Origin: Anaerolinea sp.
GTDB taxonomy: Bacteria; Chloroflexota; Anaerolineae; Anaerolineales; Anaerolineaceae
Direction of reading: 5' to 3'
Length of the DNA stretch: 64,000 nucleotides
Assembly (NCBI GenBank): GCA_020725865.1
Contig: DYEC01000024.1
Coordinates: forward strand, 124,001 to 188,000
Positions 1,458 through 12,886 of the stretch are shown here, one piece after another. Position 1 is the first letter of the stretch, and every line of letters starts with the position of its first letter. Under the pieces are notes generated by a model. That model did no database searches, was not told the origin of the DNA, and was given only the letters and a program-made list of their open reading frames with translations. The translations under genes were made by a program, and so were the position numbers.

Positions 1458-4145
1458 TCAGGTAATCTCAGACCGGTTTACCGATTGTTCAAGAGACAGT
1501 AGATGCTCAAGCAGGACGTTTTCTTCTTCTTCGGTGGTAATCTCACCGTTCAACCACGCGGCGCGTAGCGAATTAAGGATGCGGGAATAGCTCTTGCCGG
1601 GGGGTAACCCTTTGGCACGCAACATCAACCCAGTGGTCTTCGGGCGCACCATCTGCCATTGGGTCACATAGCGCAGCAACAATGACTTTTGTGTCTCATC
1701 TTGCGTCAGACAATACAACACGTATAAAGCGGAATGCGGGACGACCTCAAGCCGGTTCACGATACGACTGGGGGGAAGAGTGACCAGATTGGGCAATTCG
1801 CGTCGCAGTCGTGCGATGCCAATCAGCGACCTGAGCAATACATTGGGGAACTTGAGACGTTCGGCGATATTATGTAGTGTTTCTTCCGTTAGGTTGTTCA
1901 GCCAGACCAGATATGCCAGATACATACGTGTTGTTGGCAGGTCAGTATCAAACTCCAGTTTCCAGGTCGGATCAATTGGCTCAAACAAAACCCTGCGCAG
2001 ACAGGGGGCCATTGTCTGAGACCATTTCAATGCCGGGTGAATCGGTTTCAGCAGTTGCAGCTCTTCAAGCCGTGCCAACATGTCCTCGGGGTTTTCTTCG
2101 CGCAGAATCAAGTCTAATTCGTGGCGGAGACGCGGACCGCTTGTCTGACGCAGTAATGGACGGGCTTCACTGATGAGTTGTAATGTACGTTCCTCGATAG
2201 CGAAGCCGAAGCGCTGCTCAAAGCGCACCGCGCGCAACATGCGGGTTGGGTCATCAAAAAAGGATAGTGGGTGCAGGACGCGAATGCGTTTGTTTTGTAA
2301 ATCGCGGTAGCCGCCCCAAAAGTCGTACAGGTCGCCGTAGTGTCGTCCATCTAACCGAAGCGCCATCGTGTTGATGGTGAAGTCACGTCGGTAGAGGTCC
2401 AGCTTGATACTGCCGCGTTCGACAGTTGGCAGGGCGGTTGGGTAATCGTAAAACTCTGTCCGCGAACTGATCAGGTCAAGGCTCATGGGCAGGTCTTCAG
2501 CCTTGAAGTTTGCTTCCGGGTTCAGCCGGGCAGCCAGCTCGGCGCGAATACCCCCGATTTGCCATTTGGCGGTGCCAAAGCGTTTGTGGGTGGTGATATC
2601 ACCGCCGAATTCAGCCACCAGAGCGCGCCCCAGTGCAATGGCGTTGCCTTCAACTACAATGTCAAAATCTAGACCCGGGCGCTCTAATAACAGGTCGCGC
2701 ACAAATCCACCCACAACGTAAGCGGGAAGATGTTGAGTATGCGCACGTTCAGCAATAGCACGTAGCAGTGCCAGGCGTGCTGGAGGCAGGGCAGCTTCCA
2801 GGCGGTGTGCCAGATTTTTGCGCTCCGGATGCGGATGGTGATTAGCGGCTGCCAGTGTTTTAAGCAGGTCAGTGCGCGTGACAATTCCAATAATTTCACC
2901 ACTTTCCGGCGAAACGACGGGTACCTGACCCCAGCCATGGGTGACCATCAAGTATTGCAGTTTCTCCAGCGTATCGTCCGGGCGAATGGTGACTTCACCA
3001 GCTTCCATGAGACTACCGGCAGTCAGGTTCAGGTGGTGCGCAATGGCGCGGTCAACGGCGCGGCGCGTCAATAAACCGATAACTTTGCCATTTTCGACAA
3101 CCGGAAAGCCCTCATAGCCATATCGTTGCATTAATTGGGCAGCGTCTGTTACGGATGTAGTTGGCGTAATCACTCGTGGATTGCTGGACATGATTTGACC
3201 AACAGTGACGGGCGGGCGGACAAATTTGGGCAGAATGCGTAGCAGTTCGTTATAGGTCCGCTCGAGCGGCGGGGTCTTTGAGCGTTTTCTCGATTCGGGA
3301 GAGACGCGTATCAGTGCTGCCGCGGCGCGGGCATGTCCGCCACCGCCGAAATGTGCAGCAATCTGTGAGACATCCACGCGGTCGCTGGTAGAGCGGGCGA
3401 CCATGCGAATCCCGTCTTTTGTTTGCACCAGAACAAACAGACCATCTGGCTCCAGCATATCGCGTAGCTTATGGGCAATGCTGGAAATCTCCTCGCTCAA
3501 ATCCTCTGCCTGAGCGCAGGAAATAATAATCTTTTGACCGTTGACGTAATGGGTCTGTGCGCTTTCCAACAGGCGATCCTGAACCTGTAACTGCTCTGAT
3601 GAGAGCGGAGGATTGAGATACTCGCTGACGATCCGCAAGCTGGCGCCTTCTTCAAGCAAATAAGCCGCGGCACGCACATCGCGCGGGGTAGTGCTGGTAT
3701 AAGTGAGCGAGCCGGTATCTTCATAAATTCCCAACAACATCAGGGTTGCATGGAGCGGGTTCAGCCGTTCCAGACGGGTTTGTACTTGCTCAACCACCAG
3801 CGTGGTGCAGGCGCCCAAGCGCTCGATGGTGCAAAGCCAGCCGGCGGGTAAATCGGAACGCAGTTGATGATGATCAATGACCTGGACGAGGGTATCCTGC
3901 CCCATTCCTTTTGGAGTGACCAGCGATTGAGTGTCCACCAGCGTTACGCTTTCGACCGGTTCGGGTGGCAGATCACGCGCATCAACAAAGGGCAGCTCGC
4001 TACCATAGAGGGTCAGGAAGGTGCGCAAATTGCGGTTAATACGGCGCGGCAAAACGGGGATTGCCCGCTCGTTCAAAAGGTGAACGCCCAGCATGGCGGC
4101 AATGGCGTCGAAATCCGCCTGCTCGTGAGTAAGAATCAAATGCAT
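1458..4145 (-). CDS. DHH-CBS-tRNA nucleotidyltransferase fusion (A- or CCA-adding enzyme)
   Basis: The 895-residue protein joins three modules. Residues 1-300 are a DHH/DHHA1 phosphoesterase: THEQADFDA, IDHHQL at 90-95, YEDTGSL near 141 and the DHHA1 GGGGHARAAA near 267-276. Residues about 314-430 are two CBS domains. Residues about 455-895 are a class II nucleotidyltransferase of the poly(A) polymerase/CCA type: VVGGFVRDLLL, the metal-binding LDFDIVVEG, RRDFTINTMALR and DDPTRMLRAVRFEQRFGF. This architecture is known for tRNA A-adding and poly(A)-polymerase-like enzymes in Aquifex, Deinococcus and other deep-branching bacteria. The DHH motif looks intact, so nanoRNase or cyclic-dinucleotide phosphodiesterase activity could accompany tRNA 3'-end repair. 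CC- versus A-adding specificity cannot be decided here. Confidence 0.88.
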   Translation of the reverse strand: MHLILTHEQADFDAIAAMLGVHLLNERAIPVLPRRINRNLRTFLTLYGSELPFVDARDLPPEPVESVTLVDTQSLVTPKGMGQDTLVQVIDHHQLRSDLPAGWLCTIERLGACTTLVVEQVQTRLERLNPLHATLMLLGIYEDTGSLTYTSTTPRDVRAAAYLLEEGASLRIVSEYLNPPLSSEQLQVQDRLLESAQTHYVNGQKIIISCAQAEDLSEEISSIAHKLRDMLEPDGLFVLVQTKDGIRMVARSTSDRVDVSQIAAHFGGGGHARAAAALIRVSPESRKRSKTPPLERTYNELLRILPKFVRPPVTVGQIMSSNPRVITPTTSVTDAAQLMQRYGYEGFPVVENGKVIGLLTRRAVDRAIAHHLNLTAGSLMEAGEVTIRPDDTLEKLQYLMVTHGWGQVPVVSPESGEIIGIVTRTDLLKTLAAANHHPHPERKNLAHRLEAALPPARLALLRAIAERAHTQHLPAYVVGGFVRDLLLERPGLDFDIVVEGNAIALGRALVAEFGGDITTHKRFGTAKWQIGGIRAELAARLNPEANFKAEDLPMSLDLISSRTEFYDYPTALPTVERGSIKLDLYRRDFTINTMALRLDGRHYGDLYDFWGGYRDLQNKRIRVLHPLSFFDDPTRMLRAVRFEQRFGFAIEERTLQLISEARPLLRQTSGPRLRHELDLILREENPEDMLARLEELQLLKPIHPALKWSQTMAPCLRRVLFEPIDPTWKLEFDTDLPTTRMYLAYLVWLNNLTEETLHNIAERLKFPNVLLRSLIGIARLRRELPNLVTLPPSRIVNRLEVVPHSALYVLYCLTQDETQKSLLLRYVTQWQMVRPKTTGLMLRAKGLPPGKSYSRILNSLRAAWLNGEITTEEEENVLLEHLLSLEQSVNRSEIT

Positions 4146-7807: not shown

Positions 7808-10800
7808 ATGTTGGCTGACCATACGATCCCGCTCACGCGCATCACATTACCGCGGCGACGAAGTGAATACATTACCCGCCAGCGTCTTATGGATATGCTT
7901 AGTGAGCTGCTGGACAAAAAGCTGATTCTTATTTCGGCTCCAGCTGGTTATGGAAAGACAACCCTGCTGATTGATTTTGCCAACCAGATTGAGCTGCCGG
8001 TTTGCTGGTACTCTATTGCTGCGCTGGATTATGATCCACAACGTTTTTTACTAAATCTAATTGCCGCGATTAACCTGCGTTTTCCAACTTTTGGACAGCG
8101 TGCTCTTACTGCTTTACGTAACGTGCAAGGGAACATCAATCCAGAATATCTGGCAACCGTGTTTAACAATGATTTATATGACAATGTCCCGGAACACTTT
8201 GTACTGATCTTGGATGATTTTCACCTGGTGAATGACAATCTTTTGATCCAGGAATTCATGAGCCACTTTTTACAAAACGCGGATGAGAATTGCCACACGA
8301 TTATCACTTCTCGAACGTTGTTAACCCTGCCGGTTCTGCCTTTGATGGTTGCCCGTTCAGAGGTAGGGGGGCTCAGTTTTGAGGAACTGGCTTTTCGCGT
8401 GGATGAAGTTCAGCAATTATATGAGCGCAATCAAGGACTGGCTTTGTCGGCTGATGTTGCCGGACAAATATTGGATAAAACTGAGGGATGGGTAACCGGC
8501 ATCGTATTATCAGCACAGGTTGGCTTGAAGCGTCCCGGAGAGCAATCTCGCCTGGCGCGGGTATCCGGGGTTGGGCTGGATGAGTATTTTCAATATCTGC
8601 TCAATCAGCAACCTGATGAATTACGCGATTTTCTGCTCCGCACTTCCTTGCTTGAGGAGTTTGATGTTAAGCGTTGCGAGGAGGTGATTGGTCGAGCTTT
8701 GTCGCTCTCCGGTGTGGATTGGCAGAAGCTGTTTGATGAGGTTGAGAAAAACAATTTGTTCGTTCAACCAGTGGGGGATGATGGAGCCTGGTTGCGCTAT
8801 CATAATTTGTTTCTCAGTTTCTTGCAGGCGCAAATGCGACGCGAACGTCCCTATGAGACCGTAGCCATTGAGAATGAACTTGCTACCCTCTATCTGGAAT
8901 ATGGTGCCTGGGATGATGCCTTTAGTGTATTTAAGCGTCTTGGGAGGGTGGATCAGCTGGTCAAACTTGTGGAGCGAGCAGGTCCGGATGTTCTGGTAGA
9001 AGGGCGTGTTGCCATGCTATCCGCATGGTTGGATGCGTTGCCGTCGGATGTGCTTACATCACGGCCCTTCATTGTAGCGTTGCAGGGTGCACTCGCCGCG
9101 ACAACAGGCGATATGAACCTGGCATTGGATCTGTATGATCAGGCAATTAATGCCATGAAATTGCCTGAAGACCGACGAATCCTAGCGCGTGCGCTGGTCT
9201 GGCGGGCAACGACATACTATCGCATGATCGGTGATTACGCTTCGGCAATCGCAGATGCGCGTGAGGCAATCAGTCTGATTGAGGATGACCGGGAGTTCAG
9301 CCTGGTTTTGACTGAGGCGCAACGTTGTATTGGCGTTTGTCTGCGTATGCAGGGAAAACCCAATGAGGCTTTGAAATGGTTTAACCAGGCTTTGACGGTA
9401 GCATTGCAGGATCAGGATAGCAGAAAAGAAGCAATGATCCGCATGGAGTTAGGACTGGCTTATGAAAACTTGGGGGAATATGCAAAGTCCAGAGAAATGT
9501 ACGAAGCTGCCTTACGCTACTGGCAAAAAGTGGATAACGCTTTCTGGTTGTCAAATCTGTTGAATAACCTTGGGGTGCTTCAGCATATTACCGGCAACTA
9601 TCAGGCAGCGGTGGAGACGCTTGAAAAAGCGCTGACCTATGCGCGACTGGTGGGTCATGTTCGTCTGGAGGCTTTTATCCTGACCGGTATCGCAGATATT
9701 TATGGTGAGCTGGAGGCTTATGAAGAAGCCAACAATGCATATAATCAGGCTCTTCAGCGTGCTCACCATGTTCAGGAAAACTTTTTGTATGTTTATATCC
9801 ATGTCCAGCAGGCTGTTTTAGCAGGAATTGCGGGCGAGTATGAACAGGCGTATCGTTTATTGGAGAATGCCCGCGCTATGGCAAAGCTAGATCAAATGAC
9901 AATGGAGAGTTATCTGTGTGATCTTGAATATGCTGGCTTAAAAATTCGTGAAGGAAAATCACGCGAAGTCATACCACTTTTGGAGGAAGTCCAGGCAATT
10001 TTTGAGCAAGAAGGACAAAAAATCCAGAGTGAGCGGGCGAGCCTATATCTGACACTGGCATATGGGCAGACCGGGCAGCGTGAGAAATTGCTGGGCAACC
10101 TTATCAAAGTTCTGGCGCATCTGAATACAGACTATCCTTCCGCTTCTCTGATTGCGGCGGCAGCTCGGTTTTCCTCGCAGCTGGAACAGTTGAAAAGCCT
10201 GGATTATGTTGGCGCACAGCTGGATGATCTGCTGGAACGGCTGGCTAAATTTAACTCGCGCTTGCCCACTTTACGCCGTTATTTGCGCTCGCTTGCTGTA
10301 TCAATTCCTTTTGCACCACCCATGATCCATATTCGCGCGCTTGGACGGATGCAGGTAAAGGTCAACAATCGCCTGCTCACGCTATCAGACTGGCAAACAC
10401 AGGCAGCGCGCGATCTATTTTTTCTGCTTCTTGCACATCCTGAGGGTTTAACAAAAGAGGAAATTGGGCTTGTTTTTTGGCCTGATGCTGCACCTGAAGA
10501 CCTCAAGTTCCGCATTAAAAATACCGTTTACCGATTGCGTCACGCAGTGGGTAAGGATGCAGTCGTTTTTGAACAAGAATGTTATCGGTTCAACAACCAG
10601 CTGGATTATGAATATGACGTAGAGTCCTTTTTGAGAGAAAATGCACTGGCGCAACAGGCAAAAGACCCATTGCAAAAATTGACCCATTACCGGGAAGCTA
10701 TTAAGCTCTATAAAGGTCTTTATCTTTCCGAGGTTAACGAAACCTGGGTCTATTCTCACCGTGAACACCTGCGTCAAAATTACTTAAGCATTTTGCTTCA

Positions 10801-11044
10801 GGTGGCTGAGATATACCTGGAAATGTCCAATTATGAGCTGGCGCTGGAATATGTCCAACGAGCGCTGGATGAAGATAATTGTCTGGAAGCGGCTTATCGC
10901 CTTTCATTCCGGATTTATGCTGCTATGGGGAATCGTCCTGCACTCGTCCGTCAATATCAGAAGTGTTGTGAAGTGTTGCAAAGGGAAATCAACGCCGATC
11001 CATCTCCCCAAACTCAAGCGCTTTATCTGGAACTGATCAAATAA
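7808..11044 (+). CDS. STAND-NTPase / TPR / BTAD giant transcriptional activator
   Basis: The 1078-residue protein has the MalT/LuxR-like STAND layout. The N-terminal region RITLPRRRSEYITRQRL leads into a P-loop (ISAPAGYGKTTLL, about 43-55), and FVLILDDFHLV is Walker B. A winged-helix region follows, then a long TPR array (about 370-800). The C-terminus carries an OmpR-like winged-helix DNA-binding domain (from IHIRALGRMQVKV; KEEIGLVFWPD; IKNTVYRLRHAVG) and a bacterial transcriptional activation domain (YKGLYLSEVNETWVYSHRE onward). It is thus an SARP/BTAD-type output, not a LuxR HTH. Such proteins sense a ligand through the TPR region and activate nearby genes. The next gene, 150 bp downstream after a terminator, is the tandem-repeat peptide, so that is a plausible but unproven target. 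Confidence 0.9.
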   Translation: MLADHTIPLTRITLPRRRSEYITRQRLMDMLSELLDKKLILISAPAGYGKTTLLIDFANQIELPVCWYSIAALDYDPQRFLLNLIAAINLRFPTFGQRALTALRNVQGNINPEYLATVFNNDLYDNVPEHFVLILDDFHLVNDNLLIQEFMSHFLQNADENCHTIITSRTLLTLPVLPLMVARSEVGGLSFEELAFRVDEVQQLYERNQGLALSADVAGQILDKTEGWVTGIVLSAQVGLKRPGEQSRLARVSGVGLDEYFQYLLNQQPDELRDFLLRTSLLEEFDVKRCEEVIGRALSLSGVDWQKLFDEVEKNNLFVQPVGDDGAWLRYHNLFLSFLQAQMRRERPYETVAIENELATLYLEYGAWDDAFSVFKRLGRVDQLVKLVERAGPDVLVEGRVAMLSAWLDALPSDVLTSRPFIVALQGALAATTGDMNLALDLYDQAINAMKLPEDRRILARALVWRATTYYRMIGDYASAIADAREAISLIEDDREFSLVLTEAQRCIGVCLRMQGKPNEALKWFNQALTVALQDQDSRKEAMIRMELGLAYENLGEYAKSREMYEAALRYWQKVDNAFWLSNLLNNLGVLQHITGNYQAAVETLEKALTYARLVGHVRLEAFILTGIADIYGELEAYEEANNAYNQALQRAHHVQENFLYVYIHVQQAVLAGIAGEYEQAYRLLENARAMAKLDQMTMESYLCDLEYAGLKIREGKSREVIPLLEEVQAIFEQEGQKIQSERASLYLTLAYGQTGQREKLLGNLIKVLAHLNTDYPSASLIAAAARFSSQLEQLKSLDYVGAQLDDLLERLAKFNSRLPTLRRYLRSLAVSIPFAPPMIHIRALGRMQVKVNNRLLTLSDWQTQAARDLFFLLLAHPEGLTKEEIGLVFWPDAAPEDLKFRIKNTVYRLRHAVGKDAVVFEQECYRFNNQLDYEYDVESFLRENALAQQAKDPLQKLTHYREAIKLYKGLYLSEVNETWVYSHREHLRQNYLSILLQVAEIYLEMSNYELALEYVQRALDEDNCLEAAYRLSFRIYAAMGNRPALVRQYQKCCEVLQREINADPSPQTQALYLELIK

Positions 11045-11076
11045 CGGTATACCTTGCAAAATTGTAATGGTTCATG

Positions 11077-11099
11077 CCAGTTGACGGGCTGGTTTTTTT
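11077..11099 (+). terminator. Rho-independent terminator after the BTAD regulator
   Basis: A short stem (CCAG paired with CTGG, extended by G-T pairs) is followed by seven T residues, 33 bp after the regulator stop. The stem is short, so strength is uncertain. Confidence 0.55.
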
Positions 11100-11190
11100 G
11101 TCTTTTGAGACCGATTTGATGCCTATTTTGTGACTGCAAAACCTCATAATGACCATAGTTGAAACAAAATTTGCTGAGGAGAGAATGGTC

Positions 11191-11412
11191 ATGATCGAGA
11201 CAGTTTTTGCTCAAAAGCCCGGTGCGAGTGGTGGTTTTGGCGGTTGCAAACCTGGTGCGAGCGGCGGCTTCGGTGGTTACAAGCCTGGCGCGAGCGGCGG
11301 CTTCGGTGGCTACAAGCCTGGCGCAAGCGGCGGCTTCGGTGGCTACAAGCCTGGCGCAAGCGGCGGCTTCGGTGGCTACATGCCCGGTGCGAGCGGCGGC
11401 TTCGGCGGGTAA
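11191..11412 (+). CDS. Small tandem-repeat peptide, six 11-residue Gly-rich units
   Basis: The frame encodes an 8-residue leader (MIETVFAQ) followed by six repeats of consensus K-PGASGGFGG-Y. The linker residue is Cys after unit 1 and Tyr after units 2-5. Unit 6 starts with Met instead of Lys and ends the protein. The start was chosen because GAGGAG at 11176-11181 is 9 bases before this ATG; in-frame ATGs at 11185 and 11149 are possible and would give up to 87 residues. There is no typical signal peptide and no hydrophobic segment. The regular Gly/Ser/Phe/Tyr repeat resembles either a multi-core RiPP precursor or a low-complexity structural peptide; I know no named family for it. Codons of units 2-5 are nearly identical, indicating recent unit duplication. 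Confidence 0.7.
   Translation: MIETVFAQKPGASGGFGGCKPGASGGFGGYKPGASGGFGGYKPGASGGFGGYKPGASGGFGGYMPGASGGFGG
11215..11409 (+). repeat. Six tandem 33-bp coding repeats
   Basis: Units begin at 11215, 11248, 11281, 11314, 11347 and 11380; the last is 30 bp and abuts the TAA stop. Units 3-5 differ from each other by only a few bases. Unit 1 is the most diverged (GGT/TTT codons where the others have GGC/TTC), as expected for array growth by internal duplication. Confidence 0.95.
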
Positions 11413-11582: not shown

Positions 11583-11604
11583 GCCGCCGTTGGGCGGCAT
11601 TTTT
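11583..11604 (+). terminator. Intrinsic terminator between repeat-peptide and NHLP-like genes
   Basis: GCCGCC (11583-11588) and GGCGGC (11593-11598) form a perfect 6-bp GC stem with a GTTG loop, followed by a run of Ts to 11604. It ends the repeat-peptide transcript or attenuates read-through into the next gene, whose ATG lies 60 bp downstream. Confidence 0.7.
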
Positions 11605-11664
11605 ATACCTGTTTGCCGGAGTTATTGGTGAGGAGCATCGTTTTTGCAGGAAGGAGAAGAAAAA

Positions 11665-11985
11665 ATGACTATGCTAAACCGAACAAGTGAGATCAAGCCT
11701 GTTACCTCTTATCTTCAGCCTGACCCAGTAGCCATAATGAGACGTGAGTGCAGTCGGCTGATCCACGCTGCTGTGGTCAGCAAGCGGTTCCGTGCTCGCC
11801 TGTTAACTGACCCACTGCAGGCGGTTGAAGCCGGCTACGGCGGCGAGCAGTTCATGTTCACACGTGAAGAAAAAGCCCGTATTCGCGCCATTCAGGCGGA
11901 TACACTGGAAGATTTTGCTGCCCAGCTCGTAAGGGTAATTGAAGCACCCGCGGCGGTGGAACTGGCTTATCTCTCAAATCCGTAG
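11665..11985 (+). CDS. NHLP/Os1348-like small protein (possible RiPP precursor-type leader)
   Basis: The 106-residue protein starts at the ATG preceded by AAGGAG with an 8-base spacer; a TTG 21 bases upstream is less likely. The middle matches the pattern of Os1348-type proteins of the nitrile-hydratase-leader-peptide clan: SKRFRARLLTDPLQAVEAG, then FTREEKARIRAIQADTLEDF, that is, x-F-R-x-x-L-L-x-D-P-x-x-A-x-x then L-T-x-E-E-x-A-x-I/L. In known systems these domains are leaders for post-translationally modified peptides or stand-alone relatives of unknown job. No Gly-Gly cleavage site followed by a core is obvious; the tail is APAAVELAYLSNP. No modification enzyme lies within the window. The assignment is from motif memory only. 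Confidence 0.55.
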   Translation: MTMLNRTSEIKPVTSYLQPDPVAIMRRECSRLIHAAVVSKRFRARLLTDPLQAVEAGYGGEQFMFTREEKARIRAIQADTLEDFAAQLVRVIEAPAAVELAYLSNP

Positions 11986-12055: not shown

Positions 12056-12886
12056 ATGAAAGCTTCTACTAACATAGACACGATGAGCCGCAGAGGCACC
12101 ATTCAGGATAATCCTTCTCACGAACTTTTCATTCCTATTGAGACGGATTACCACAACCGCGTAACTGGTATTTTTATCCTTGATCTCGCCGAATACGCGG
12201 AAAGTATCCAGAAAAATCTCTTTGATATTACCGGTAGCTACTTCCGAGAAGGTTTATCTGGGTTAACAGTTCATCGTGCACCGCTGGATCAATCACTTCA
12301 GAAAGGATATATTGCCACCCTGCTAAAGCTGGCACGTTCCATAGACGAAAGCGATGAGCATACTCGTTTCCATCGCTTGCGCACAGCAATCTGGGTTCGC
12401 CATCTTTCGCAGGAATTGGGCTTAAGTGAGGAGGAGGTCAATACACTGGTGCTGGCTGCAAAATTGCATGACGTTGGGAAGGTCATGGTACCAAAGGAAA
12501 TTCTACTTCGCCCAGATCATTTGTTGCCAGACGAGTGGGATATGATGAAGCGCCATCCGAATTTTGGTGCTGTTCTAATGGAACCTTCTGTTGCTCTTCA
12601 GCCGGTAATCCCCGCAGTTCGAGCACATCACGAAAACTATGATGGCAGTGGCTATCCTGCGGGGCTTGCCGGTGATGCGATACCTTTTGGTGCCCGTATC
12701 CTAAGCGTGGCGGACGCGTTTACAACGATGACGGATGGACGGGTGTATCGGCGTCCGTGCTCGATTCATCAGGCTGTTCAGGAGCTGGAGCGGTGTTCTG
12801 GAACGCAATTTGATCCGCTGATCGTCGAAGCGATACTGGCGTTAATCTATCGCGGTGATATTGAAGATTTGAGAGAATACTTGTAA
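12056..12886 (+). CDS. HD-GYP domain cyclic-di-GMP phosphodiesterase-like protein
   Basis: From the ATG at 12056 the protein has 276 residues; a TTG at 11939 would overlap the previous gene and is unlikely. After an unassigned 80-residue N-terminus, the HD-GYP domain shows AAKLHDVGKVMVPKEIL (HD), HPNFGAVLMEP, RAHHENYDGSGYPAGL (HHExxDGxGYP, the diagnostic GYP motif), ARILSVADAFTTMTDGRVYR and SGTQFDPLIVEAIL. All expected metal ligands are visible, so hydrolysis of c-di-GMP is likely. No receiver domain is attached. It is 70 bp downstream of the NHLP-like gene on the same strand. It may be cotranscribed with it, which would be an unexpected pairing. Confidence 0.87.
   Translation: MKASTNIDTMSRRGTIQDNPSHELFIPIETDYHNRVTGIFILDLAEYAESIQKNLFDITGSYFREGLSGLTVHRAPLDQSLQKGYIATLLKLARSIDESDEHTRFHRLRTAIWVRHLSQELGLSEEEVNTLVLAAKLHDVGKVMVPKEILLRPDHLLPDEWDMMKRHPNFGAVLMEPSVALQPVIPAVRAHHENYDGSGYPAGLAGDAIPFGARILSVADAFTTMTDGRVYRRPCSIHQAVQELERCSGTQFDPLIVEAILALIYRGDIEDLREYL

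Follow-up and report, generated by a model that had tools for sequence, protein, structure and literature searches.

The window analysed here, a 64,000-nucleotide stretch of an Anaerolinea sp. genome, contains a small gene whose product consists almost entirely of six tandem 11-residue Gly-rich units, and this gene is real, translated, and under purifying selection. Judged from its sequence, the product is best explained as a soluble, nearly leaderless poly-tail peptide, in which the unit matches the Gly-rich tail of short peptides encoded at the same position in related genomes. We give about an even chance to the reading that the gene is SARP-activated and that the tail is a functional regulatory or signalling ligand, acting most likely on the TPR sensor of the adjacent regulator.

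An open reading frame is present on the plus strand at 11149–11412 of the window, and the six units are encoded within it at 11215–11409 (plus strand), confirming the six-unit gene that the first-pass annotation had described. The 33-nt units, [KM]PGASGGFGG[CY], read in order KPGASGGFGGC, four times KPGASGGFGGY, and MPGASGGFGG, with CK, YK, YK, YK, and YM as linkers, and Tandem Repeats Finder returned a period of 33, 5.7 copies, and a 90% match. The array is single-copy in the window's genome. When the units were compared with each other in frame 0, there were 68 synonymous and 10 non-synonymous differences, compared to 0/69 and 10/58 (synonymous/non-synonymous) in the other two frames; the same count between the units of five relative arrays gave 30/0, 22/0, 35/0, 12/0, and 32/4. 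The synonymous divergence in frame 0, with the five relative arrays alike, indicates that the gene encodes a translated, selected peptide and is not satellite DNA. The first-pass annotation had proposed a functional repeated-unit peptide and had named frameshifted homologues or a non-translated RNA as grounds against it; the frames of the homologues are intact, Rfam holds no family matching the repeat region, and unit number differs between homologues that are conserved in synteny, all of which upholds the proposal.

The start of the gene had been placed at ATG 11149, together with a very short leader, an own ribosome site, and an own terminator. ATG 11149 is located inside a −10-like box, CATAAT (11145–11150, plus strand), which is kept in the related genomes G031 and G054, and no ribosome site serves it. 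A ribosome-binding site, GAGGAGAG, is present at 11176–11183 (plus strand), ahead of ATG 11191, and the relatives in G031 and G054 have AAGGAGAG in the equivalent position, behind which they open directly at the repeat (MN, MH, or M followed by KPGASGG). Considering that ATG 11149 lies in the −10 box without a ribosome site and that the relatives start at the repeat, the true start is most likely ATG 11191, with ATG 11185 as the alternative. The gene would then span 11191–11412 (plus strand) and encode 73 aa, MIETVFAQ followed by the six Gly-rich units, and almost no leader would be left. The terminator is real, although it lies about 170 nt 3ʹ of the repeat gene, where GCCGCC-GTTG-GGCGGC-ATTTTTAT forms an intrinsic terminator at 11583–11605 (plus strand); by inspection, a similar hairpin is found in the equivalent place in G031 and G054. 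The upstream regulator gene is closed by an intrinsic terminator of its own (GCCAGTTGACGGGCTGGT followed by TTTTTT, 11076–11100, plus strand), which lies between the two genes. With this terminator before it and the one at 11583–11605 after it, the peptide gene is probably its own transcription unit.

The upstream gene (7808–11044, plus strand) encodes a large SARP-type regulator of 1078 aa, composed of a MalT-like STAND ATPase, a TPR superhelix, and a C-terminal winged helix with BTAD. Pfam matches were obtained to BTAD (3.9e-18), TPR_12 (3.9e-30), and TPR_MalT, similarity to MalT was found in NCBIfam, and the PDB sequence match was MalT 8bob (2.4e-46); a match to RNPP_C (E 0.013) was below the cut-off. 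The predicted model of the regulator (pLDDT 76, pTM 0.50) matched the folds of MalT, of a STAND-TPR protein, and of peptide-binding LGN TPR superhelices, the last being generic matches, and the predicted fold permits peptide binding. Downstream of the peptide gene there is an Os1348-like small protein of 106 aa (11665–11985, plus strand) with homologues in 86 of 251 genomes, which matched Pfam Frankia_peptide (1.1e-8, 35.7 bits against a cut-off of 48) and the NCBIfam Os1348-family domain (1.1e-8, 35.0 bits against a cut-off of 40). It is followed by an HD domain protein (HD_5; HD-GYP-like; 12056–12886, plus strand; Pfam HD_5 1.7e-39), which is syntenic in relatives. The other ten neighbouring proteins have housekeeping or unrelated functions, and the vicinity of the peptide gene was found to contain neither an exporter or importer nor a processing protease. 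Elsewhere in the window, a gene on the minus strand (1458–4145) fuses a DHH/DHHA1 phosphoesterase, a CBS pair, and poly(A) polymerase/CCA-adding domains.

With the Os1348-like protein as the handle, about 80 loci were fetched and 56 syntenic Anaerolineales loci were compared; an Os1348 alignment proved too divergent to be used for scanning contigs. The same cassette recurs in dozens of loci, in the order SARP/MalT-type TPR regulator, a slot for a short peptide, in part of the loci a DUF5317 membrane protein (PF17248), the Os1348-like protein, and, as the last conserved member, the HD protein. In the commonest slot peptide, a basic N-terminus is followed by a hydrophobic helix of 17 residues, which ends in [GA]GAP, and then by a Gly-rich tail, mostly of 9 residues (for example, PGATGLNGG and PSATGTIGG). 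Measured from the last basic or polar residue to the Pro, the hydrophobic stretch is exactly 17 residues long in 42 of 43 DUF5317-positive slot peptides, and in these the Pro after GA is nearly invariant. A Pro at this position disfavours cleavage by signal peptidase I. Among 400 sampled genomes of the phylum, strong matches to the helix profile were confined to the order Anaerolineales; weak matches outside the order (E about 2e-4 to 1e-2) were not counted. The window peptide has no hydrophobic segment and no export signal, a secretion signal having been looked for in its sequence, and its unit, PGASGGFGG, agrees with PxAxGGxG, the consensus of the tails. On the strength of this short low-complexity sequence together with its position, the repeat unit matches the slot-peptide tail and appears related to it. 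Neither Pfam nor NCBIfam has a family for the window peptide or for the helix-type slot peptide, and the literature searched gives no description of the slot-peptide family, in agreement with the earlier remark that no described family could be recognised. In four loci (L082, L086, L247, and L265), the entire gene for a short hydrophobic peptide is present in the slot in two to five tandem copies, and every copy has a ribosome site of its own, while other lineages multiply within one gene. In L106, L113, L256, and L261, two or three Os1348-like genes come after DUF5317, and neither a SARP regulator nor a peptide was found upstream.

Repeat forms were also found in the slots of other genomes. 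Homologues of the repeat gene occur in G054 (E 1.4e-16) and G031 (4.6e-13), both of the same family as the window's genome, each with two adjacent genes in the same slot that carry 5+5 and 4+4 units of KPGASGGIGGGY, respectively, compared to six units in the window; the comparison of unit number that had been suggested earlier thus revealed variation. A direct protein search of the genome contigs with the repeat protein found no relative, and further weak matches of the repeat search were read as chance, several of them containing stops; the one in L004 was inspected and is not a repeat gene. The slot of Thermanaerothrix daxensis GNS-1 (L170, matching G030) encodes PQASGDISRRS four times, and four genomes of family f9 (G123, G135, G146, and G225) and the Anaerolineales MAG TGS_CHL7 have four units of the HPVGGGVGTGP or NQPLGGGIGTGP type. 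The genes of these five genomes sit directly after the SARP regulator, behind promoters with TCATAG-type repeats 12 bp apart, and the f9 units (HPVGGGVGTGP) share with the tail no more than a leading Pro and a richness in Gly. A single helix-less SPTASGGIGGV was found in G009. In 49 loci fetched by regulator similarity only, tandem arrays with a period divisible by three were enriched in the slot, which accounts for 5% of the sequence and held 3 of the 7 rows, some of which overlap (p = 0.004).

The presence of the helix goes together with that of DUF5317. On a regulator tree of 56 loci, the absence of DUF5317 requires 7 changes, and the helix motif was absent along with DUF5317 in 7 of 7 independent pairs (sign test, p = 0.016); some alternative pairings gave 6 of 7, with p up to 0.031. 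An earlier test on 27 loci had yielded 3 of 3 (p = 0.25), and more loci were added because only three independent pairs were available there. The motif rule used on the tree was written after the sequences had been seen, and it misses the DUF5317-positive L114, which counts against the coupling. With a helix profile trained on DUF5317-positive loci only, held-out DUF5317-positive slot peptides scored at least 36.6 bits, and all 13 DUF5317-negative ones scored at most 11.4 bits. DUF5317 was absent genome-wide in all eight motif-less genomes tested and single-copy in three helix-type genomes; its absence in L183, L272, L275, L276, and L281 was judged at the locus only. The DUF5317-negative slot peptides of G029, G148, G247, and G249 are still hydrophobic, without the GAGAP motif, and the others are soluble. 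For DUF5317 itself, a model was predicted with a pLDDT of 90, a fold search of the PDB with this model found no relative (best E 2.9), and the literature searched contained nothing on the domain.

The slot promoters carry boxes of the SARP type. In the window, SARP-type direct repeats TTTTGAGACC, TTTGATGCC, and TTTTGTGAC, 11–12 and 23 bp apart, are located at 11103–11134 (plus strand); they are imperfect (8/10 matches, p = 0.195 against dinucleotide shuffles). Across 33 loci, the slot direct repeats beat the shuffles at p ≤ 0.05 in 27. Taking repeats with at least 8/10 matches and a −10 hexamer 7–14 nt downstream as the criterion, direct repeats followed by a −10 box were present in 52 of 61 slot promoters, spaced 12 bp apart in 44, 23 bp in 7, and 11 bp in 1; in known SARP targets, the repeats are 11 or 22 bp apart and 8 bp from the −10 box (PMC10936776). 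The pattern TTTGAGACCN{2,3}TTTRATGCC occurred once per genome in G000, G031, G054, and G011, and in the first three of these the sole site is the slot promoter; the repeats at 11103–11134 are such a site. The half-sites vary among genomes and are usually the same within one promoter (TTTTGAAGCC, TTTTGCATCC, TTTTGTAGCC, TTTTGGAGCC, and TTTTGATGCC), which looks as if they had evolved in concert with the DNA-binding domain of the SARP protein.

We propose that the adjacent large SARP regulator most likely activates the peptide gene directly, much as AfsR does afsS, that the tail would be the active part of the peptide, serving as a regulatory or signalling ligand, and that it would most likely feed back on the regulator through its TPR sensor. 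In the relatives, DUF5317 and the helix may help to place the tail in the membrane, to export it, or to process it; lineages lacking DUF5317 lack the helix motif, and some of them keep the tail in a soluble, often multiplied form. More tentatively, and with the balance of probability against it, the cassette could represent a peptide signalling system of a new kind in Chloroflexota, in which SARP/STAND-TPR receptors are paired with cognate Gly-tailed peptides, DUF5317 handles the helix precursor, and repeated switches to leaderless poly-tail precursors bypass DUF5317.

The other readings were weighed against the same evidence. The peptide could instead be an AfsS-like intracellular microprotein that is no ligand of the SARP protein; its repeats would contact RNA polymerase or some other regulator and so pass the SARP signal on to distant genes. 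The shared anatomy (a SARP-TPR regulator, an adjacent small gene with SARP direct repeats, and short tandem repeats) and the lack of an export signal in the window form would suit this reading. However, unlike AfsS, the commonest family members have a hydrophobic helix of 17 residues that goes together with a membrane protein, and we regard this reading as a rather unlikely alternative. If the hydrophobic peptide were antimicrobial or toxic and DUF5317 its immunity protein or antidote, the strict co-loss of helix and DUF5317 would be accounted for, in that loss of DUF5317 would force loss of the helix and leave a harmless repeat remnant; up to four tandem peptide genes and the link of an Os1348 protein to antibiotic activity in Pseudomonas (PMC7726476) would also fit. 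Yet a remnant tail should decay, whereas the arrays are multiplied and under strong purifying selection, arose repeatedly, and keep the same kind of SARP promoter, so that this explanation seems improbable. We are slightly more sceptical still of a structural role, as a Gly-rich repeat or a small membrane subunit partnering DUF5317 and assembling in the envelope of these filamentous bacteria; the Gly-rich repeats with aromatics at regular spacing and the fixed-length membrane helix of the relatives would be in keeping with it, but the window form is short, lacks a signal sequence, and has a dedicated activator promoter.

The first-pass annotation had suggested, beside a self-assembling peptide, a multi-core RiPP precursor, to which the six near-identical units and the sub-threshold match of the Os1348-like neighbour to a RiPP-named family could lend some colour. 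The relatives are leaderless, however, and the neighbourhood check proposed with that reading found no radical SAM, YcaO, LanM, protease, or other modifying enzyme gene among the 10 neighbours or in the conserved cassette. The SARP regulator directly upstream, the boxes in the promoter, and the hydrophobic peptides related to this one suggest a regulator/small-peptide pair instead, and a RiPP now appears very unlikely. A non-coding satellite or attenuator with an accidental frame, despite the tandem repeat DNA and the terminator downstream, is hardly credible in view of the five relative arrays, whose units diverge almost purely by synonymous changes in a single frame, the ribosome site, the intact frames of the homologues, and the lack of an Rfam match.

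Whatever its mode of action, the slot peptide represents an unannotated small-protein family, without a Pfam or NCBIfam model, in a conserved Anaerolineales regulatory cassette that extends to the cultured Thermanaerothrix daxensis. DUF5317, on which the literature searched has no paper, is thereby given a specific genetic partner and a role that can be tested, and a membrane-helix peptide changed repeatedly in evolution, several times to soluble or tandem forms and each time without DUF5317. If the peptides are signals, TPR-receptor peptide signalling would extend beyond Bacillota, and the function of the AfsS repeats may have to be considered in this light.

Among known systems, the Os1348/NHLP clan touches the locus through the downstream neighbour at 11665–11985, which matches the family domain below curated cut-offs; the matching protein is this neighbour and not the repeat peptide, and no modifying enzymes stand beside it. 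The RRNPP, SHP, and leaderless communication peptide (LCP) pairs likewise place a TPR-containing cytoplasmic regulator beside a very short peptide gene, the relatives of the window peptide share their basic N-terminus, hydrophobic core, and short C-terminal tail, and leaderless variants occur among LCPs (PMC10518010). In contrast to these pairs, the putative receptor here is a MalT-like STAND/SARP protein with a C-terminal SARP/BTAD part and not an HTH-TPR RRNPP protein, the organisms are Chloroflexota and not Bacillota, and tandem copies are joined in one chain; the window peptide, unlike an RRNPP propeptide and unlike its DUF5317-positive relatives, has no hydrophobic segment. The literature searched described no RRNPP systems in Anaerolineae and contained nothing relevant on Chloroflexi quorum sensing and SARP; by analogy, the RRNPP and LCP mode of action may resemble that of the window system. 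The nearest described arrangement appears to be AfsR/AfsS of Streptomyces, in which AfsS, a target of AfsR, has 63 aa with three 12-aa repeats (PMC10936776, PMC2267785). Both systems have a large SARP regulator with nucleotide-binding and TPR domains, an adjacent small gene with short tandem repeats (3 × 12 aa in AfsS and 6 × 11 aa here, compared by description), and direct repeats near the −35/−10 region of its promoter (PMC10936776, PMC2267785). They differ in that the SARP domain is N-terminal in AfsR and C-terminal in the window regulator, that the promoter repeats are 11 or 22 bp apart there and 12 or 23 bp here, and in the sequence of the repeats, and here there are relatives with membrane helices and DUF5317, and Os1348-like and HD genes follow.
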